Assembly: GCF_006715785.1 (NCBI RefSeq)
Contig: NZ_VFNX01000001.1
Location: forward strand, 3,858,501-3,922,500
Direction of reading: 5' to 3'
Source: Streptomyces puniciscabiei
GTDB taxonomy: Bacteria > Actinomycetota > Actinomycetes > Streptomycetales > Streptomycetaceae
DNA: 64,000 bases
This document shows positions 48,981-59,109 of this stretch, one piece after another. Position 1 is the stretch's first letter, and every line of letters starts with the position of its first letter. A program made the position numbers and the translations under genes. Under the pieces are notes generated by a model. The model worked only from the letters and a program-made list of their open reading frames with translations. It was not told the origin of the DNA and ran no database searches.

Positions 48981-51509
48981 CTACTCGGCCTTGATCGCCG
49001 CCAGCATGTTCAGCCGGGCCGCGCGCCGGGCCGGCCACAGCGCGGCGAGGACGCCGACCGTGCCCGCCAGCAGCAGGAAGACCGCCATCCGGCCCCAGGG
49101 CAGGACCAGTTCGTACGTCGGCATCTTGGTGCCCAGCAGCTGACCGGCCGCCCAGCCGAAGAACACGCCGAGCCCGATGCCGAGCACCCCGCCGAACAGG
49201 GAGATCACCAGGGACTCCAGGCGGACCATCCGCTTGACCGCCTTGCGGTCCAGGCCGATCGCGCGGAGCATGCCGATCTCCTGGGCGCGTTCGAAGACCG
49301 ACATGGCCAGGGTGTTGATGACGCCGAGGACCGCGACGATCACCGCCATGCCGAGCAGGCCGTAGAGCATGTTGAGCATCGTCGTGAAGATCTTCGCGAT
49401 GGCGTTGGAGATGTCCTGCTTGTCCTGGACCCTGATGGCAGGGTTGGAGTCGAGAGCCTTGACGAGCTTGTCCTTGGTGGCGCTGGAGGCGCCGCCTGCG
49501 GTCTTGACCATGACGTCGCTGTCGGTCGGGCGGGGCAGGTGCGGAGTGAGGGCCTTGTTGTCGACCAGGATCTCCTTGAACATCTCGTTGCCCTTGTAGA
49601 CACCGGCGACCGTCAGCTTCTGCCGCTTGCCGTCCTCGTAGCGCACGGTGAAGACCGACCCGGCCTTCCAGCCGTGCGACTTGGCGGTGTCCTCGTCCAC
49701 GGTGACCCGGGAGCCGCTCACCTCGAAGGTGCCCTGTTCCATCTCCAGATGGGTCAGTACGCCGATCGCGGAGCCGTTGACGCCGGTCAGCACCTCGTTG
49801 GAGTCGTCGATCCGGGAGACGGTACGGCGCAGGGGGCTGCTGTCGGTCACGCCGTCGGTCGCGGCGATCTTCTTCGCCACGTCAGGGGAGAGCGGGTCGC
49901 CGTTGGTCATCGAGACGACGTAGTCCGCACGGAGCGACGAACTGGCCATCTTGTCGATCGCGGTCTGCAGGCTGCCCGCCATCACCGTCATGCCGGTGAT
50001 CAGGGTCAGGCCGATCATCAGCGCGGAGGCGGTGGCCGCCGTACGGCGCGGGTTGCGCACCGAGTTCTGGCGGGCCAGCTTGCCCGAGACACCGAAGGCA
50101 CGCAGCACCGGCGCGGCGGCCGCGATCAGCGGGCGGGACAGCAGCGGGGTCAGGACGAACACGCCGATGATCAGCAGCACCGCGCCGATGCCCATCGGGC
50201 CCTGGGCGGAGTCGGCGTCCATCGACGTGGCCGCGAGGACCACCGCGACACCGGCCGCCGCGAACAGCGCGCCGAGCGTGTTGCGCAGCACCAGCGACTT
50301 GGTGGTCGCCTTGGCGTGCACGCTGCTCATCGCCGCCACCGGCGGGATCTTCGCGGCCCGGCGGCCGGGCAGCCAGGCGGCCAGCATGGTGACGAGGACG
50401 CCGACCGCGAGGGCGGCCACCACCGTGCCCGGGGTGATCACCAGCGGCCCGTCGGGCACGCTCGCGCCGAAGGAGCCCAGCAGCGAGCGCAGGCCCGCCC
50501 CGATGCCGACACCGGCGGCGAGACCGGCCACCCCGGCGACCGCGCCGACCGCGAACGCCTCGATCAGCACCGAGCGGGTCACCTGGCGGCGGGAGGCGCC
50601 GACCGCGCGCAGCAGGGCCAGTTCGCGGGTGCGCTGGGCGACCAGCATGGTGAAGGTGTTGGCGATGATGAACGTGCCGACGAACAGCGCGATACCGGCG
50701 AACACCAGCAGCGCCTGCTTCAGGCCGCTCATCGAGTCGGCGATCTGCTTGGCCTGGTCGTCGGCGAGCTGCTTGCCGGTGGTGGTGTCCACCAGGTGGG
50801 AGGGCAGCGCCTTGTCCAGCTCGGCCTTCAACGCGGTCTGGCTGGTGCCGGGCGCGGCTCTGACGTCGATCTCGTCGTACGTGCCCTTCTTGCCGAACAG
50901 CTTCTGCGCGGTCGGCGTGTCGAACAGGGCGAGGCTGCCGCCGGCGGAGACGTTGCCGTCGTCGGTGGTGAAGATGCCGGCGAGGGTCGGGGTGAGGACC
51001 GGGCCGTTCACGGACAGGCGCACGGTGTCGCCGACCCGGTAGCCGGCCCGCTTCGCGGTCTTGGAGTCGAGCAGGACCTCGCCCGCGCCGTGCGGGGCGT
51101 GGCCGCCGACCAGCGGGTACCGGGCGTCCTTGGTGCCCCAGTAGTTGCCGCCGTTGGACTGCCAGTCACCGCCGACGAGTTTGCCGTCCTTGCCGGCGAC
51201 GGCGGTGAAGCCGCTGACGACACCGGTCGCGGAGGCGGCACGGGGAACCTTTGCGGCCTTGTCCAGCGTGGCCTGGCTCAGGCCGGACAGCTCGCCGACC
51301 TTGTCGCCCCGGGAGTCCTGGTACTTGGGCTGTACGGCGACGTCGACCTGGTCGAAGCCCTTGGCGGAGCTCTTCTGGTAGGCGTCGGAGATGGTGTTGG
51401 TGAAGACGAGCGTGCCGGAGACGAAGGCCACGCCGAGCATCACGGCGAGCACGGTCATCAGCAGCCGGGCCTTGTGCGCGAGGACGTTGCGCAGGGCGGT
51501 GCGGAACAT
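48981..51509 (-). CDS. ABC transporter permease (FtsX/MacB, duplicated), paralogue of the 18380 gene
   Basis: The 842-residue protein contains two FtsX units: NTFTMLVAQRTRELALLRAV (about 285-304) and NTLAMSVFERAQEIGMLRAI (about 740-760). The N terminus RNVLAHKARLLMTVLAVMLG matches the paralogue. Its ATG shares one base with the stop of the ATPase gene (TGATG), so translation is coupled. No accessory adaptor is present. The substrate is unknown. Confidence 0.93.
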   Translation of the reverse strand: MFRTALRNVLAHKARLLMTVLAVMLGVAFVSGTLVFTNTISDAYQKSSAKGFDQVDVAVQPKYQDSRGDKVGELSGLSQATLDKAAKVPRAASATGVVSGFTAVAGKDGKLVGGDWQSNGGNYWGTKDARYPLVGGHAPHGAGEVLLDSKTAKRAGYRVGDTVRLSVNGPVLTPTLAGIFTTDDGNVSAGGSLALFDTPTAQKLFGKKGTYDEIDVRAAPGTSQTALKAELDKALPSHLVDTTTGKQLADDQAKQIADSMSGLKQALLVFAGIALFVGTFIIANTFTMLVAQRTRELALLRAVGASRRQVTRSVLIEAFAVGAVAGVAGLAAGVGIGAGLRSLLGSFGASVPDGPLVITPGTVVAALAVGVLVTMLAAWLPGRRAAKIPPVAAMSSVHAKATTKSLVLRNTLGALFAAAGVAVVLAATSMDADSAQGPMGIGAVLLIIGVFVLTPLLSRPLIAAAAPVLRAFGVSGKLARQNSVRNPRRTAATASALMIGLTLITGMTVMAGSLQTAIDKMASSSLRADYVVSMTNGDPLSPDVAKKIAATDGVTDSSPLRRTVSRIDDSNEVLTGVNGSAIGVLTHLEMEQGTFEVSGSRVTVDEDTAKSHGWKAGSVFTVRYEDGKRQKLTVAGVYKGNEMFKEILVDNKALTPHLPRPTDSDVMVKTAGGASSATKDKLVKALDSNPAIRVQDKQDISNAIAKIFTTMLNMLYGLLGMAVIVAVLGVINTLAMSVFERAQEIGMLRAIGLDRKAVKRMVRLESLVISLFGGVLGIGLGVFFGWAAGQLLGTKMPTYELVLPWGRMAVFLLLAGTVGVLAALWPARRAARLNMLAAIKAE

Positions 51510-52279
51510 CAGGAGGTACGCCCCTTCGCGTCGAACTGCTTCATCAGGTCGAGGACGGAGTCGGCCGTGGGGCCGTACATCTCGTCGACGATCCGGCCGT
51601 CGGCCAGGAAGACCACGCGGTCCGCGTAGGCGGCGGCCACCGGGTCGTGCGTCACCATGACCACGGTCTGGCCGAGCTCGCGTACGGAGTTGCGCAGGAA
51701 GCCCAGCACCTCGGCGCCGGAGCGGGAGTCGAGGTTTCCGGTCGGCTCGTCACCGAAGATGATCTCGGGCCTGGAGGCCAGGGCGCGGGCGACGGCGACG
51801 CGCTGCTGCTGGCCGCCGGAGAGCTGGGCGGGCCGGTGGCTGAGCCGCCCGGACAGGCCGACCATCGCGATCACCTGGTCCAGCCAGGCCTTGTCCGGCT
51901 TCCGCCCGGCGATGTCCATCGGCAGGGTGATGTTCTCCAGGGCGGTCAGCGTCGGCAGCAGGTTGAAGGCCTGGAAGATGAAGCCGATCTTGTCCCGGCG
52001 GAGCTTGGTGAGCTGCTTGTCCTTCAGGGAGCCCAGCTCGGTCTCGCCGATCCGCACGGAGCCGGAGGAGAAGGTGTCGAGCCCGGCCACGCAGTGCATC
52101 AGCGTGGACTTGCCGGAGCCCGACGGGCCCATGATCGCGGTGAACTCGGCCTGCCGGAAGTCGACGGAGACCTGGTCCAGGGCGACCACCCGGGTCTCGC
52201 CCTGCCCATAGATCTTCGACAGCTCCGTGGCGCGTGCGGCCACTGCGGTGGTCCGGCCGGCGGTGGGTGTGGTGGTCAC
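51509..52279 (-). CDS. ABC transporter ATP-binding protein (MacB/LolD type)
   Basis: The 256-residue protein has Walker A GPSGSGKST, Q-loop FQAFNLLPTL, signature LSGGQQQRVAVARAL, Walker B IIFGDEPTGNLDS and H-loop VMVTHD. It is nearly collinear with the ATPase at 17595-18383 and ends with the same FDAKGRTS-type tail. GTG 52279 has AGGAGC upstream. It is the first gene of a two-gene operon with the permease, transcribed away from bldA. Confidence 0.95.
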   Translation of the reverse strand: MTTTPTAGRTTAVAARATELSKIYGQGETRVVALDQVSVDFRQAEFTAIMGPSGSGKSTLMHCVAGLDTFSSGSVRIGETELGSLKDKQLTKLRRDKIGFIFQAFNLLPTLTALENITLPMDIAGRKPDKAWLDQVIAMVGLSGRLSHRPAQLSGGQQQRVAVARALASRPEIIFGDEPTGNLDSRSGAEVLGFLRNSVRELGQTVVMVTHDPVAAAYADRVVFLADGRIVDEMYGPTADSVLDLMKQFDAKGRTS

Positions 52280-52976: not shown

Positions 52977-53666
52977 ATGTGTCTTCGGCCCTGGGTCGCA
53001 GCACCGCTGGCGGGTGCGGCCATCGCCCTTGTGTCCTCGCCGGTCGCCGTCGCCGCGCAGGCGCCCGTGGCGTACGAAGGGGACGGGCGCCACGGTCACC
53101 ACAACCCCTGGCGCGACTGCCACAGCCGCCGCGGTGTCGTGCTCATCGACAAGGGGCTCAGAGCGATTCTGACCAACGGCCCGCGTGGGCCGGAGGCGCT
53201 CGTCATCCAGGGCAGCTCGGCATCGTCCTCGTCCCCGACGGCACCGTGGGACACCTTCACTGTCTCGACCTATCTGGCCGTGGACTATCCCACCCAGACC
53301 TCCGGCCAGTACGCGTTCGCGATTCGTGAGTTCTTCCGGGTGCATCCGCTCTTCGAGGTGAAGGCCTTCGGCGTCCACAAGAGACTGTTTCCCTTCCCGG
53401 CCACCCACTGCCGCCACGGCCGGGACGACGGTGACGGCGGGGACGGTGTTCGCCCGCAGGGCGGTGCGGTTGTCGACGGGAACGGTTCGCCGTCGCTCCA
53501 GAAGGGCGCCCCCGGGCGCACCGCTCCCTCGCACGACAGCGAGGCTGCCGGCTGGAGCGGCAGCCTGCTGAGCGTGAAGCGCATCGTGATCGCGGCCGGC
53601 GGTCTGCTGGTGGTTGTGGGACTGCTCGCCGCGGCCTGGCTCCGCCGCCGTCGTTCCGCCGAGTGA
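52977..53666 (+). CDS. secreted, C-terminally membrane-anchored protein of unknown function
   Basis: The 229-residue protein has a signal peptide (VAAPLAGAAIALVSSPVAVA), a mature domain with WRDCHSRRGVVLIDKGLRA, TFTVSTYLAVDYPTQTSG and ATHCRHGRD, and a disordered Gly/Ser-rich linker. One C-terminal helix (VIAAGGLLVVVGLLAAAWL) is followed by RRRRSAE, a cell-surface anchoring layout. ATG 52977 has GGAGG 9 nt upstream. I do not recognise the family. It is transcribed downstream of bldA and convergent with the next gene. Confidence 0.75.
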   Translation: MCLRPWVAAPLAGAAIALVSSPVAVAAQAPVAYEGDGRHGHHNPWRDCHSRRGVVLIDKGLRAILTNGPRGPEALVIQGSSASSSSPTAPWDTFTVSTYLAVDYPTQTSGQYAFAIREFFRVHPLFEVKAFGVHKRLFPFPATHCRHGRDDGDGGDGVRPQGGAVVDGNGSPSLQKGAPGRTAPSHDSEAAGWSGSLLSVKRIVIAAGGLLVVVGLLAAAWLRRRRSAE

Positions 53667-54724: not shown

Positions 54725-54985
54725 TCACCCCTCGTACACCGTCAGTACGGCGCCGTCCACCTCGATGCGCCGGCCCGCCCGGAGGCCGTCCGTGCGCAGG
54801 GTGCGCAGGCAGGTGCGGAACAGCTCCAGTTCCTCCGCGTCCAGGATCGCGGCGGCCAGGTCCAGCAGTTCGGTCACCGCGTCCTCGGTGAGCACCTCGG
54901 GCAGCTCGCCGGAGAGCAGGACGACCGATTCACCGGCGGGGCCCCGGACCACCGCGGTGGCCGGCCCGCCATGCACGAACAACAC
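54725..54985 (-). CDS. small conserved hypothetical protein
   Basis: The 86-residue acidic protein begins GTG 54985 (MLFVHGGPATAVVRGPAGES). It contains a Leu/Glu/Asp-rich helix (EDAVTELLDLAAAILDAEEL) and ends IEVDGAVLTVYEG. No catalytic motif is visible. GGGGGG lies upstream as a ribosome binding site. It is 145 bp downstream of the XRE regulator on the same strand, so it could be in its transcript. Confidence 0.6.
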   Translation of the reverse strand: MLFVHGGPATAVVRGPAGESVVLLSGELPEVLTEDAVTELLDLAAAILDAEELELFRTCLRTLRTDGLRAGRRIEVDGAVLTVYEG

Positions 54986-55130: not shown

Positions 55131-55547
55131 TCACTTCTCCGGTGGCGAGGGCGCCGACGGCGCGGAGCGCCCCAGCAGGGACTCGACCAGGGCGGCGACA
55201 TGCCGGCGGTCCTCCGCCGACAGCTGTTGCACGCTGGCGATGAGCAGGTCCACCTCGGGGTCGGTGGCCGGGGCGGCCGTACCGTCGGTGTCCGGTCCGG
55301 CCGGGGTGCCGTAGACGTGGATGCCGCAGGCCTCGGCGGCGGCCCGGCGCACGGTGTCGAGCGGCAGCTCAAGGCCCTTGGCCAGGCCTTCCAGGGTGGT
55401 GGCCTGGGGCATGCGGACGACCCGGTCGGTGGTGGCCAGGTGGTGGACGGTGGAGCGGGGCACACCTCCGCGCCGCGCCACGTCGCCGTAGGACCAGCCC
55501 TTTCGGTCGAGACGCTCACGGATCAACTGCTGCAGTGCGTTGGCCAC
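55131..55547 (-). CDS. XRE-family helix-turn-helix regulator
   Basis: The 138-residue protein has an N-terminal XRE HTH (LIRERLDRKGWSYGDVARRG, then GVPRSTVHHLATTDRVVRMP). A C-terminal helical region (ATDPEVDLLIASVQQLSAED, RRHVAALVESLLGR) may dimerise. It is divergent from the two small peptide genes, with the TTGGACA operator between them, so it probably controls that cassette and itself. The start is ATG 55547. Confidence 0.82.
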   Translation of the reverse strand: MANALQQLIRERLDRKGWSYGDVARRGGVPRSTVHHLATTDRVVRMPQATTLEGLAKGLELPLDTVRRAAAEACGIHVYGTPAGPDTDGTAAPATDPEVDLLIASVQQLSAEDRRHVAALVESLLGRSAPSAPSPPEK

Positions 55548-55675
55548 CGAAGTCCACTTCCTGCTCGCCGCTCGACCGAACCGTCCCTGTCGGCGCCGAT
55601 TCTACGGTCGGGTAGTCGGGCCGCCGAAAGGGTGATTCGCCGAACGGGTTGCGGAGGGGTGTCGCGAGGCCCTAG

Positions 55676-55716
55676 TGTCCAATCTCGTTGGACAGCCCGT
55701 CCGACCAAGTTGGACA
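55676..55716. promoter_or_regulatory. inverted and direct TTGGACA operator
   Basis: TGTCCAA (55676-55682), TTGGACA (55688-55694) and TTGGACA (55710-55716) form an inverted repeat with a 5-bp spacer plus a third half-site 22 bp further, two helical turns. The site lies between the divergent XRE gene and the peptide genes. Confidence 0.7.
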
Positions 55717-55779
55717 GAGTCCGGGGGGAACCTGACTCTCTCCGACCGGAACCGCCTGTTTCCCGAGGGGGAATCGATC

Positions 55780-55995
55780 ATGTTGAACGCCCATGAGCTC
55801 GACGCCGAGTCCGCGGAGCTGCTGCCGGGCCGTGAGGCCCTGGGCCGGCTGAAGTTCAGCTTCGGCAAGACGGTCAACGTCACCAAGCACGTCGCGCACA
55901 TCAACGCCCACAACGAGTCGGCCGCCGTCAACGACCACTCCTCGTGGTCCGTGGCCGACTCCGGCGCCGGCCAGAGCATCACCGTCGTCCAGTAA
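55780..55995 (+). CDS. small tandem peptide 1 (putative precursor)
   Basis: The 71-residue peptide starts MLNAHELDAESAELLPGREA, continues LGRLKFSFGKTVNVTKHVAH and ends with a Ser-rich, Cys-free tail (SITVVQ). ATG 55780 has GAGGGGG upstream. Residues 7-57 are almost identical to those of the next gene. The acidic N-terminal leader-like part and the Asn/His-rich core (HINAHNESAAVNDHSSW) suggest a precursor for processing, but there is no Cys and no known RiPP signature. It lies upstream of a PqqD-like/M50 protease gene. Confidence 0.7.
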   Translation: MLNAHELDAESAELLPGREALGRLKFSFGKTVNVTKHVAHINAHNESAAVNDHSSWSVADSGAGQSITVVQ

Positions 55996-56042
55996 CGCTC
56001 GCGCCCCGTCCCCGAACGACACACCACGAGAGGAACACCACC

Positions 56043-56261
56043 ATGAGCATGGACATGCGCGAGCTGGACGGCGAGTCCGCGGAGCTGCTGCCGGGCCGTG
56101 AGGCCCTGGGCCGGCTGAAGTTCAGCTTCGGCAGGACCGTCAACGTCACCAAGCACGTGGCGCACATCAACGCCCACAACGAGTCGGCCGCCGTCAACGA
56201 CCACTCCTCGTGGTCCGACGCCGAGTCGTCGGCCCAGCAGACGATCACCGTCCAGCAGTAA
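56043..56261 (+). CDS. small tandem peptide 2 (putative precursor, duplicate)
   Basis: The 72-residue peptide (MSMDMRELDGESAELLPGRE ... SSAQQTITVQQ) is a recent tandem duplicate of the previous gene. Substitutions cluster at the first 6 and last 15 residues, while LLPGREALGRLKFSFG, NVTKHVAHINAHNESAAVND and HSSW are shared. Conserved nucleotides including third positions point to recent duplication or gene conversion. AGAGGA precedes ATG 56043. It ends 133 bp before the protease gene. Confidence 0.7.
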   Translation: MSMDMRELDGESAELLPGREALGRLKFSFGRTVNVTKHVAHINAHNESAAVNDHSSWSDAESSAQQTITVQQ

Positions 56262-56279
56262 CGGCACCACCGCTACGAC

Positions 56280-56363
56280 GGCAGCGGGGGCGGACCGCAC
56301 CGCCGAAGGGGCGCGCCGGAGGTGACAGGCCACCGGCGGGCGGGGCGGTCCGCCCCCGCTGCC
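56280..56363 (+). terminator. perfect 19-bp hairpin between peptide genes and protease gene
   Basis: GGCAGCGGGGGCGGACCGC (56280-56298) and its exact complement (56345-56363) enclose a 46-nt segment that can itself fold. No T-tract follows. The position suggests partial termination or mRNA protection so that peptides are made in excess over the protease. Confidence 0.7.
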
Positions 56364-56394
56364 ATGGGGGGAACGGCGTGGGGGGAGACCACGG

Positions 56395-58320
56395 ATGACG
56401 GTGCTCGACGACGGCACCAGCGCGCTGTACGACACCGGTCCGGTGCCCGGGCCCGGGGGCTGGCCGGTGACGTACGAACAGGTGACGACCGGCAGCCTGC
56501 CGGCCGTCGGAACGCCGGTCCGCCCGGCCCCGCGGCTCAGCGCGGGGCTGCGGCTGCACGGCGAGTACCAGGGCTCGGGCTTCACCGAACCGAAGTACAT
56601 CGCCCGTCGGGGGGACGGGCAGGTCGTCCAGCTGTCGCGGCTGCTGTACCTGGTGGCGTCGTCCGTCGACGGGATCCGTGACGTCGACACGATCGCCCAC
56701 CGGGTCAGCGCCCGCTACGGCCGTGAGGTCAGCGGCGAGAACATCCGCTACCTGCTGGAGAACAAGCTCCAGCCGCTCGGTGTGACCGTGCCGGAGGGTC
56801 AGGAGGACGACGAGGTCGACGCCCCGCGCTCCGACCTGCTGCTCGCCCTCAAGGGCCACCGGGTGGTCTTCGACGAACGTCGTACGGCACGGATCGCGCG
56901 CGCCCTGGCCTGGCTGCACCGCCCGGCCGTGGTCGCCGCCGTGCTGCTCACGGCGCTCGCGATGGACGTCTGGCTGTTCGGCTACTTCGGGGCGATCGAA
57001 CCGGTGCTGGAGGTCCTGGACCAGCCGGTGCTGATCCTCATCGTCTTCGTCCTCACCGTGGCCTCCCTCGTCTTCCACGAGTTCGGCCACGCCTCGGCCT
57101 GCCGCTACGGCGGCGCCCGGCCCGGCTGCATCGGCTGCGGGCTCTTTCTCATCTGGCCGTCGATGTACACCGACGTCACCGACGTCTACCGGATCTCCCG
57201 GGCGGGCCGGCTCCGCACGGACCTCGGCGGGGTGTACTTCAACGTCGTCTTCATGCTGGCCATGGCCGGGGCCTACTTCGCCACCGGGGCGCAGTTCTTC
57301 CTGGCCGCCGTCTACCTCGGGCACTTCGAGATCCTGGAACAGCTGATGCCGGCCGTCCGCCTGGACGGCTACTACATCCTCGGCGACCTCGCCGGGGTGC
57401 CGGATCTCTACGGCAAGATCAAGCCGATCCTGCTCTCGCTCGTGCCGGGCGTGAAGGGCCGGGCGGCGCGCACGGAGGTCGCCGGGCTGAAGAGCTCCGC
57501 GCGCACCATCGTGGCCGGCTGGGTGCTGACCATGGTGCCGCTGATCGTCGGCGAGCTGGGCTACGCGCTGTGGAACCTGCCCCGGATCCTCACCACGACG
57601 GTCCGCTCGCTGACCGAGCAACTCCTCGGTACCGGCGCCGCGTTCGCGCACGGGCAGATCGTCGCCGGGCTCGTCGGGGTGATCGGCAGCGTGATGCTGC
57701 TGTGCCCGATGGCCGGTGTCGGCTACCTCTCCGTGAAGATCGGCGGCCGGCTCCTGCGGGCCGCGAACCGCTCCACCGCCGGCCGGCCCCGGCTGCGGCT
57801 GGCGCTGTGCGTGCTCGCCCTCGCCGGACTCACCGGGCTCTCCTACGCCTGGGTCTCGGGGATGACCCCGAAGCCGTTGCCGAAGCAGCCCCCGATCGCA
57901 CCGATTCTGCAACCCGGGGTGTCGACCGAGGAGCCCTCGCCCCGGGACGCCTCCACTCCGGTCCACGGCGGGCACGGCCGGTACGGCACCGGCGGCGCCT
58001 CCGTGTCGCCTTCGGCGGTGCCGGGGGCTTCCGCTTCGGCGCCGGGCGGCGGGCCGTCGCCGGGCCCCTCGGGGAGCGCGTCCGCCTCGGCCGCCAGGCA
58101 GTCGGCGTCGGGCCCGGCCGCGCCGGCCGCACCGACCGGCTCGAAGTCCCACCAGCCGGAGTCCTCCAGCGGCGGGGCCACCGCGACCACGACCCCGCCC
58201 GCCAGCCCGGACCCCGGCCCCCCGACCTCCCCGACCCCCTCGGAGAGCGTCCCCGCGTCACCGACCGGGAGTCCGACGTCCGCGCCGCCCGGCGGCTCGC
58301 CCGCGCCGGCGTCGTCCTGA
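56395..58320 (+). CDS. membrane M50-type metallopeptidase with PqqD-like N-terminal domain
   Basis: The 641-residue protein has an N-terminal region (about 60-135: QLSRLLYLVASSVDGIRDVD, TIAHRVSARYGREVSG) that reads as a PqqD-like peptide-recognition fold. Membrane segments follow, with zinc motif HEFGH at 228-232 in VASLVFHEFGHASACRYGG and the partner Asp324 in VRLDGYYILGDLAGVPD, typical of putative peptide zinc metalloproteases. About six to seven helices are present, ending near 500. A C-terminal 130-residue Ser/Pro/Thr-rich tail follows. It probably binds the leader of the preceding peptides and cleaves them at the membrane. The start is ATG 56395 behind GGGGGAGA. Confidence 0.82.
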   Translation: MTVLDDGTSALYDTGPVPGPGGWPVTYEQVTTGSLPAVGTPVRPAPRLSAGLRLHGEYQGSGFTEPKYIARRGDGQVVQLSRLLYLVASSVDGIRDVDTIAHRVSARYGREVSGENIRYLLENKLQPLGVTVPEGQEDDEVDAPRSDLLLALKGHRVVFDERRTARIARALAWLHRPAVVAAVLLTALAMDVWLFGYFGAIEPVLEVLDQPVLILIVFVLTVASLVFHEFGHASACRYGGARPGCIGCGLFLIWPSMYTDVTDVYRISRAGRLRTDLGGVYFNVVFMLAMAGAYFATGAQFFLAAVYLGHFEILEQLMPAVRLDGYYILGDLAGVPDLYGKIKPILLSLVPGVKGRAARTEVAGLKSSARTIVAGWVLTMVPLIVGELGYALWNLPRILTTTVRSLTEQLLGTGAAFAHGQIVAGLVGVIGSVMLLCPMAGVGYLSVKIGGRLLRAANRSTAGRPRLRLALCVLALAGLTGLSYAWVSGMTPKPLPKQPPIAPILQPGVSTEEPSPRDASTPVHGGHGRYGTGGASVSPSAVPGASASAPGGGPSPGPSGSASASAARQSASGPAAPAAPTGSKSHQPESSSGGATATTTPPASPDPGPPTSPTPSESVPASPTGSPTSAPPGGSPAPASS

Positions 58321-58348
58321 CACCTCGTCAGCGGCATCCGGCCCGCCC

Positions 58349-58432
58349 GGCCGATCGACACCTTCCGGCCTTCCTGGGCCGGCCGACACCTTCCGGCCCT
58401 CCGGGGCCGACCGACACCTTACGGAGACCCCA
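58349..58432 (+). repeat. three exact-length 28-bp direct repeats ending at a start codon
   Basis: Units begin GGCCGA/GGCCGG at 58349, 58377 and 58405, each with the core CCGACACCTT (first unit CGACACCTT) and a GGCC-rich tail. The third unit has diverged to ACGGAG, creating the ribosome binding site of the secreted protein gene at 58432. Confidence 0.85.
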
Positions 58433-59109
58433 TGAGCAGCCACCGCAAGGCACGCTCCAGCAACCATCCCCTCGCCCGGCGCGCCCTGGGCATGGGCCTG
58501 TTCGCGGCCGGATTCGCCGGTGTGGCCACCGCCGTACCGGCCCAGGCCGCCACCGGCGCGTCGCACGCGGCCTTCGCCGCCGACCACGTCTTCAGCCACG
58601 TCGACCGGGCCCACCACACCCAGGCCCGGGACTCCTTCACGATCCGCCAGTTCGGCGCCGTCAACGCGGCGGGGGTGCGCAACCAGGCCAACGCCGTCTC
58701 CGCGGGCTGCTCGGCCGACGACCACTGCCGGTCGGTCGCTCTGTCCTTCCAGATCGTGACCGTCGCGGGCGAGCACACCCACCTGAACGCCGTGAACCTC
58801 AGCGACGCGGCCAACAAGGAGTGCACCGGCTGCCAGACCCTCGCCGGCGCCTACCAGTTCGTCGTCTCCACACCGGCGCCCCTCACCCTCGACACCGCGG
58901 CCCGGGAGCGGCTCGCCGACATCCACCGCCGGCTGGACGCGCTGACCCGCTCCTCGGTGCCCGCGGCCGAGCTGAAGACGCGGGTCGACGGACTGGCGGG
59001 CGAGGTCTCGCAGGTCCTGCGCGACGCCGTCGCCCACGCGCCGAAGACGGACACCGCCCAGCCCACGGTCACGCTTCACCGGCATCTGGACGGCTGGCCG
59101 GGCCACTGA
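58432..59109 (+). CDS. secreted protein of the peptide/protease cassette
   Basis: The 225-residue protein has a signal peptide (RALGMGLFAAGFAGVATAVP, cleavage near AQAATGA). The middle domain reads FTIRQFGAVNAAGVRNQANA, AGCSADDHCRSVALSFQIVT and ECTGCQTLAGAYQFVVST, with two Cys pairs (CSADDHC, CTGC). A C-terminal helix region (RERLADIHRRLDALTRSSVP, LKTRVDGLAGEVSQVLR) follows. I know no function for this family. Its position directly after the M50 gene suggests it is the exported effector, a binding partner or immunity factor of the peptides. Confidence 0.75.
   Translation: MSSHRKARSSNHPLARRALGMGLFAAGFAGVATAVPAQAATGASHAAFAADHVFSHVDRAHHTQARDSFTIRQFGAVNAAGVRNQANAVSAGCSADDHCRSVALSFQIVTVAGEHTHLNAVNLSDAANKECTGCQTLAGAYQFVVSTPAPLTLDTAARERLADIHRRLDALTRSSVPAAELKTRVDGLAGEVSQVLRDAVAHAPKTDTAQPTVTLHRHLDGWPGH

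Follow-up and report, generated by a model that had tools for sequence, protein, structure and literature searches.

A leader-peptide, M50 protease and secreted-partner cassette in Streptomyces: a candidate release-and-assembly system for beta-arch peptides

We analysed a 64,000-nucleotide stretch of the Streptomyces puniciscabiei genome (assembly GCF_006715785.1, contig NZ_VFNX01000001.1, positions 3,858,501 to 3,922,500; hereafter the window), which carries a cassette of two precursor peptides, an M50 membrane protease, a secreted four-Cys partner protein (SEC) and a divergent XRE-type regulator. Our preferred reading, held tentatively, is a leader-guided release-and-assembly system in which beta-arch peptides assemble on or with SEC. 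The computed results behind it are gene content and linkage, predicted folds of a site-2 protease (S2P) and of a recognition element for ribosomally synthesized and post-translationally modified peptides (RiPP recognition element, RRE), the likeness of precursor core and SEC, beta alternation, and 18-residue repeats. SEC has a module in common with the precursors and is often fused to the protease; these features suggest a material that assembles more than a small natural product.

A first-pass annotation of the region had described a peptide-maturation cassette with an XRE regulator, two near-identical Cys-free peptides of 71-72 residues, an M50 protease and a secreted Cys protein. All five genes are present at the coordinates below. 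The peptides have the lengths given and no Cys, but at 82% identity they are not near-identical. Among the matches listed, the best named ones are Streptomyces proteins, and the protease and SEC each have their top match in S. puniciscabiei at 97% identity.

55131-55547, minus strand: XRE/Cro-type helix-turn-helix (HTH) regulator of 138 aa, in divergent orientation to the precursors (Pfam HTH_3)
55780-55995, plus strand: precursor peptide 1, 71 aa, leader ELDAESAELLPGREALGRL followed by a beta-arch-like core (open reading frame (ORF), clustering, alignment)
56043-56261, plus strand: precursor peptide 2, 72 aa, leader as in precursor 1, core at about residues 27-72 (ORF, alignment)
56395-58320, plus strand: RRE-M50 membrane protease, 641 aa (NCBIfam scores, AlphaFold2 (AF2) model)
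56521-56799, plus strand: RRE/PqqD-like winged-helix domain, protease residues 43-135
56875-57720, plus strand: S2P core, protease residues 161-442
57076-57090, plus strand: HEFGH zinc motif, protease residues 228-232 (alignment of 77 sequences)
57361-57375, plus strand: LDGYY motif, protease residues 323-327, with D324 the presumed third zinc ligand (same alignment)
57859-58317, plus strand: Pro/Ser/Ala-rich C-terminal tail, protease residues 489-641, presumed to lie outside the membrane
58432-59109, plus strand: SEC, 225 aa, with a signal-like N-terminus (by eye)
58666-58767, plus strand: SEC module 1, residues 79-112, strand, Cys93/Cys99 turn, strand (DSSP)
58780-58872, plus strand: SEC module 2, residues 117-147, strand, Cys131/Cys134 turn, strand, matching the precursor core (DSSP, profiles)

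The precursor core and SEC share a module

The precursors fall into three clades with one common plan, a leader followed by a core. Clade A (Streptomyces and kin) reads ...ELLPGREALG plus core; clade B reads ...GEELPDREAMS plus LINANLAAPVNAAVAANVLSDNS.AYANAEQ...I.Q; and clade C reads ...ALPDKEVVS plus LDLNADLDL..., with several repeats. The leader motif of clade A is almost invariant, and the clade A core varies at alternate positions. All 23 aligned precursors end in Gln. A search with precursor 2 gave 278 relatives, the best 120 of which are listed, and neither window precursor matched a Pfam family.

The AF2 model of SEC has a predicted local distance difference test score (pLDDT) of 85.4, and DSSP assigns two strand pairs, 79-91/99-112 and 117-129/134-147, each joined by a turn that holds two of the four Cys. 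Cys 93, 99, 131 and 134 are invariant across 89 aligned sequences, the window's included, as are N84, A88, A140 and Q142. A search returned 235 SEC relatives (best 120 listed), and SEC matched no Pfam or NCBIfam family above cut-off. The precursor core, spaced A44.N46.S48.A50.N52..S55..S58.A60.S62.A64.Q66.I68, lines up with SEC A120.N122.S124.A126.N128..C131..C134.T136.A138.A140.Q142.V144, with Ser in the core at the positions where the SEC module has Cys. This register was noticed by eye, and profile comparison then returned the same one, aligning the core to the second SEC module in each of the three clades. The profile score for clade A is 21.9, against 18.4 for the best of 300 column shuffles and 9.7 for the reversed profile. 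The corresponding values are 26.3, 19.2 (best of 150) and 16.0 for clade B, and 24.6, 21.8 (best of 150) and 14.4 for clade C. When shuffling preserved odd/even parity, 1, 0 and 0 of 120 shuffles reached the observed score for clades A, B and C, respectively.

The core profiles were also searched against 1406 locus proteins. The clade A profile finds SEC at E 2.9e-7 and 3.6e-6, and the first protein that we read as unrelated, setting aside unlabelled precursors and accessory peptides, appears at E 0.74. SEC is found from E 6e-4 with the clade B profile and only from E 0.042 with that of clade C. Of the top 20 non-precursor matches, 9, 8 and 3 are SEC proteins for clades A, B and C, against a 7% share of the database. 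A curli-like spacing about SEC residues 68-85 was rejected, since its Asn is not conserved among relatives.

Precursor cores show a beta-like alternation and an 18-residue repeat

Conservation in clade A, measured as entropy over 133 distinct peptides, alternates at residues 40-52 (p 0.001) and 60-72 (p 0.0003), with p 0.19 for the leader; by this pattern, clade A cores alternate like beta-strands. A motif of the form small-x-small-x-small-x-Q-x3-I-x-Q, defined after inspection of the sequences, is present in 137/140 clade A, 39/42 clade B and 37/37 clade C precursors. Clade C precursors carry it two to four times each, and 59 of 99 successive spacings are exactly 18 residues. Clades B and C together hold 175 copies, against 0.54 expected in shuffled sequences. 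The curlin repeat of Pfam (PF07012) was absent at E up to 10 from one clade C and three shorter precursors, and at E up to 1 from the window precursors.

An additional Arg-rich peptide of similar pattern, without an LPxRE leader, precedes the precursors in several clade B loci (L060:4443-4649, L064:4306-4488, L086, L087 and L088). The core profiles match two Arg-rich peptides, L087_5 (E 2.8e-6 and 3.1e-4) and L060_6 (E 0.011).

The cassette recurs as a unit

Among 121 genomes of the same genus, the source genome included, the precursor peptide occurs in 10. The same 10 carry the protease at 66% identity or more (12 copies) and SEC (12 copies, plus a marginal match in G008 at E 7.6e-4). Each of the 12 proteases is closely followed by SEC and preceded, within 0.9 kb, by one or more peptides, in keeping with the earlier proposal that leader-bearing precursors are tied to the protease. 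For two of the 24 peptide matches (in G117 and G106), a second cassette follows 6.5-8.5 kb downstream. Another 20 genomes of the genus have weaker protease matches, at about 40% identity or less, and lack the peptide. Across 296 genomes of the class, 27 have a match to the SEC profile, and the 9 that match the peptide profile are all among these 27.

A wider survey of public genomes by protease profile took the best 80 of 523 loci with a relative. These lie in Streptomyces, Streptacidiphilus, Actinospica, Arthrobacter, Nocardioides, Kribbella, Geodermatophilus and Mycolicibacterium, and also in Frankiaceae, Acidimicrobiia, Thermoleophilia, Rubrobacteraceae, one Chloroflexi metagenome-assembled genome (MAG) and others. 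Counts refer to the 79 loci with a called protease, leaving out L105, which gave no call; the loci were picked by likeness to one system protease, and the figures describe that clade rather than M50 proteases at large. The SEC domain is fused to the protease C-terminus in 40 loci, encoded by the next gene in 30, nearby in 4 and absent from 5, three of which stop at a contig end. A leader-bearing precursor lies upstream in 70/79 loci. The first precursor rule found 56/79 and missed LPDKEVA leaders; it was widened afterwards, and both versions match 0/308 other ORFs. By this rule, a single long precursor (207-484 aa) accompanies the fused systems (37 loci), and the unfused systems (33 loci) carry between one and four shorter precursors (64-144 aa). 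The nine misses comprise two loci that start less than 500 bases from a contig end (L089, L145), two with precursors on the other strand (L084, L103), three with short or late-starting calls (L142, L148, L151) and two with Gly-rich peptides of another kind (L128, L150). Over these surveys the cassette recurs as a unit, beyond chance.

The two loci with Gly-rich peptides, from Saccharopolyspora and a Pseudonocardiales MAG, have close protease relatives and no SEC label. Their peptides have LPARTVMS-type leaders and may form another material.

Clustering of 18 loci and the window gave no recurring family besides precursor, protease, SEC, XRE protein and a small 83-aa protein, apart from synteny among close relatives and one transposase-like family. 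No modifying-enzyme or immunity family recurred in this set, nor did a transporter family beyond close relatives. The first-pass suggestion of a cleavage-only class thus stands in part: the clustered loci agree with it, but gene neighbours outside Streptomyces were listed and not identified. By Pfam, the four window neighbours tested comprise ABC, FtsX, FAD-binding and Bax1-I proteins. We considered the adjacent ABC/FtsX transporter (48981-52279) as the exporter and rejected it, since in the clustering it adjoins the cassette in close relatives only.

Transposase-like fragments (by eye; one family of four) flank second-type cassettes at L003:5836-6642, L004:5774-6433, L005:9365-9994 and L006:393-713, hinting at mobility. 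In clade B, SEC is followed by a protein of about 260 aa that by eye resembles a lipoprotein, at L076:8488-9273, L082:6237-7004, L084 and L091; the two tested matched no Pfam family at E 0.01.

The protease combines a predicted RRE with an M50 core

The first-pass annotation had placed a PqqD-like domain on the protease and had assigned the enzyme to the M50 metalloproteases from its HEFGH and LDGYY motifs, and both assignments are supported. In the AF2 model of residues 1-502 (pLDDT 83.8), residues 53-125 are predicted to form beta-beta-beta-alpha-alpha-alpha, the three strands then three helices of the PqqD-like winged helix typical of RREs. Residues 43-135 give modest structural matches to solved RREs, and an M50 profile run against Protein Data Bank sequences had PqqD as its sole, weak match (E 0.55). 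The predicted structure supports an RRE domain on the M50 protease. The core of the model matches the folds of SpoIVFB and S2P. Across 77 aligned sequences, H228 and E229 are invariant and H232 nearly so, as in HExxH, and D324, G325 and Y326 of RLDGYY (residues 322-327) are invariant; the membrane core has both the HExxH and the downstream D-G zinc motif of the M50 family. The last long helix spans residues 465-488 and the tail comes after it. Fused relatives carry the SEC domain at the C-terminal end, where the window protein has its tail.

Profile scores place the protease as a relative of the daptide and epipeptide families, yet under their cut-offs. It scores 84 bits against NCBIfam daptide_HExxH (NF041824, cut-off 300) and 41.7 bits against YydH/LiaK (NF058609, cut-off 225), and Pfam PF02163 gives 10 bits, below its cut-off of 27.2. 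Two of the checks proposed at first pass, fold prediction against PqqD and a survey of co-occurrence, were run, and neither refuting result appeared; the PqqD-like fold was predicted where expected, and peptide homologues co-occur with the protease in other genomes. Long antisense ORFs over the protease gene were rejected as an artefact of high G+C.

A sister M50 protease of about 40% identity occurs in four genomes of the genus (L007-L010), with one or two precursors of another kind that have a GELLPERTVMG-type leader and two Cys near the C-terminus; no SEC gene is labelled at these loci. More distant M50 proteases (25-29% identity) at L012 and L013 accompany two and four Thr-terminated peptides (50-57 aa). 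Enzyme-sized genes adjoin them, and these loci have the look of candidate daptide clusters.

A candidate operator and a small conserved gene

Three further features lie beside the XRE gene.

54725-54976, minus strand: small conserved protein, 83 aa, start uncertain, behind the XRE gene (family clustering)
55676-55694, no strand assigned: candidate operator 1, perfect palindrome TGTCCAA-N5-TTGGACA (gap alignment)
55699-55715, no strand assigned: candidate operator 2, imperfect palindrome GTCCGAC..TTGGAC (gap alignment)

We aligned 22 gaps between XRE gene and precursors, 21 of Streptomyces type and one from Actinospica (19 with duplicate genomes counted once). The columns of candidate operator 1 are at least 90% conserved, and operator 2 is also conserved. 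The operator 1 palindrome has a single exact match in the 9.1 Mb genome; operator 2 is found with two mismatches under the operator 1 pattern and exactly under a relaxed one. Sites with up to two mismatches are no commoner than the control (4 places versus 6), and no sigma-70 consensus was scored in the gap. Conservation of the double operator, together with a palindrome that has no second exact copy in the genome, makes it probable that the XRE protein is dedicated to regulating the cassette. It matches Pfam HTH_3 at 25.8 bits (cut-off 23), and its family has 10 members in the clustering and adjoins the precursors in the gap-alignment loci. The only PADLOC match among six cassette proteins is this HTH protein, to the capH (3.9e-6) and mad1 (7.3e-6) regulators. 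The 83-aa family has 12 members at 11 loci, the window included, and the window protein has no Pfam, NCBIfam or PADLOC match. The 83-aa gene and the operator at 55676-55715 also belong to the cassette.

Upstream, a weakly scoring ORF at 53031-53666 (plus strand) has signal- and membrane-anchor-like ends (by eye) and one relative, in L014.

Discussion

From these features we infer how cleavage, export route, disulfides, assembly, surface role and regulation might fit together. The two precursors would be made in the cytosol, where the RRE domain of the membrane protease would bind the conserved LLPGREALG leader. The M50 core would cut near the leader end and translocate the peptide core, a dual role already proposed for EpeP (PMC10885120, PMC7614699). 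Outside, the peptide core may fold as strand-arc-strand, its N, S, A, Q and I side chains pointing inward, and stack onto SEC, secreted or tethered to the protease, which bears two Cys-bearing copies of the core unit. SEC could then act as nucleator, anchor or cap for a curli- or chaplin-like layer at the cell surface, and the XRE protein with its operator would set the timing of peptide release and assembly. We order the steps as binding, cut, export and assembly because of the domains and their presumed sides, with the RRE inside, the zinc core in the membrane, and the tail or SEC outside. An account by precursor, protease and export alone, as first proposed, falls short, having overlooked the module common to SEC and precursor and the frequent fusion of SEC to the protease.

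Each part has known counterparts. RRE-dependent M50 leader proteases are described for daptides (PMC10036551), and the daptide MpaP/DapP proteins resemble ours in having an RRE then an M50 core with leader-bearing precursors close by; over both domains the window protease scores 84 bits and a fused relative 98 bits, far below the family cut-off. They differ in that the window system has a tail or fused SEC outside. None of the four Pfam-tested window neighbours is a daptide enzyme, so that the decarboxylase/aminotransferase/methyltransferase set is not seen among them, and the 23 aligned precursors have Gln in place of the C-terminal Thr of the daptide core. An M50 protease is likewise known from epipeptides (YydH/EpeP/LiaK; PMC10885120), though no radical SAM protein is among the tested window neighbours. 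SpoIVFB and archaeal S2P lack the RRE domain and long outer tail that the cassette protease adds. On the assembly side, curli CsgA/CsgB have units of strand-arc-strand form whose N and Q face inward, a nucleator homologous to the subunit, and subunits that differ in repeat number (PMC10192328, PMC3521004). The curlin unit N-x-h-x-h-x-Q (PMC10192328) is similar in logic to the cassette motif, not identical. The cassette repeat is 18 residues, with an extra small residue, versus about 23, and its subunit bears a leader, not a signal peptide (by eye). Streptomyces chaplins have short single-unit and long two-unit members and Cys pairs, with the long ones proposed as scaffold (PMC7766987); chaplins are secreted, whereas single-unit cassette members have a leader and a protease. 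The parts are thus of known kinds. What appears new is a leader protease with no recurring modifying enzyme and a secreted partner built of the precursor's own module, a combination that we did not find in searches of open-licence literature. The first-pass term 'undescribed' calls for caution in view of the daptide and epipeptide proteases. The 'RiPP' label is unproven for the cassette, because no modifying enzyme was seen in the clustered loci, although a gene for one might lie at another site.

It is unlikely, in our estimate, that the cassette makes a cleavage-only, RiPP-like antimicrobial or competition peptide, with two freed peptides acting on other cells and SEC aiding delivery or self-protection. 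The distant kinship of the protease to daptide and epipeptide leader proteases would suit such a role, since products of those systems are haemolytic or toxic (PMC10036551, PMC7614699), and so would duplicated precursors that vary at alternate core positions. Against it stand the lack of a recurring modifying-enzyme, transporter or immunity family in the clustered loci, the module that core and SEC have in common, and the length (207-484 aa) and tandem repeats of the clade C precursors, unlike bacteriocins.

Peptide signalling or surface sensing, in which released peptides bind SEC outside and the XRE protein responds directly or via the protease, seems improbable. M50 proteases process pheromones in other bacteria, the divergent XRE gene has a dedicated candidate operator, and a protease-fused SEC could signal that a ligand has bound. 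However, the XRE protein is short, with no peptide-binding domain seen in Pfam, multi-repeat precursors are unlike pheromones, and the regulator was looked for in Streptomyces-type loci only. We also regard it as rather unlikely that SEC is a chaperone, decoy or inhibitor keeping the peptides soluble while they function in another place, such as the spore coat or envelope, as subunits alongside other proteins. A common module in the same register would also be expected of a capping chaperone, the four invariant Cys suit a stable cap, and genes that we take to be rodlin-like adjoin two cassettes (L019:4571-5611 and L020:4997-6012); the present results do not separate cap from nucleator.

Beyond assembly on or with SEC, we raise a bolder and more doubtful possibility: that actinobacteria make an undescribed class of material that self-assembles outside the cell. 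Its subunits would be exported by means of a RiPP-style leader and an RRE-guided intramembrane protease, with no signal peptide, and its nucleator or anchor would consist of two Cys-stapled copies of the subunit, in many cases as part of the protease.

Even without assembly, the module common to precursor and SEC is a testable clue to the binding partner of the released peptide. If the release-and-assembly reading is right, it would join leader-guided peptide maturation and functional amyloids, two fields kept apart, and would give a use to RRE-M50 proteases without modifying enzymes. It would also explain genes mostly named hypothetical protein among the precursor and SEC relatives, and would amount to a straightforward way of making assembling peptides outside a Gram-positive cell with three genes.

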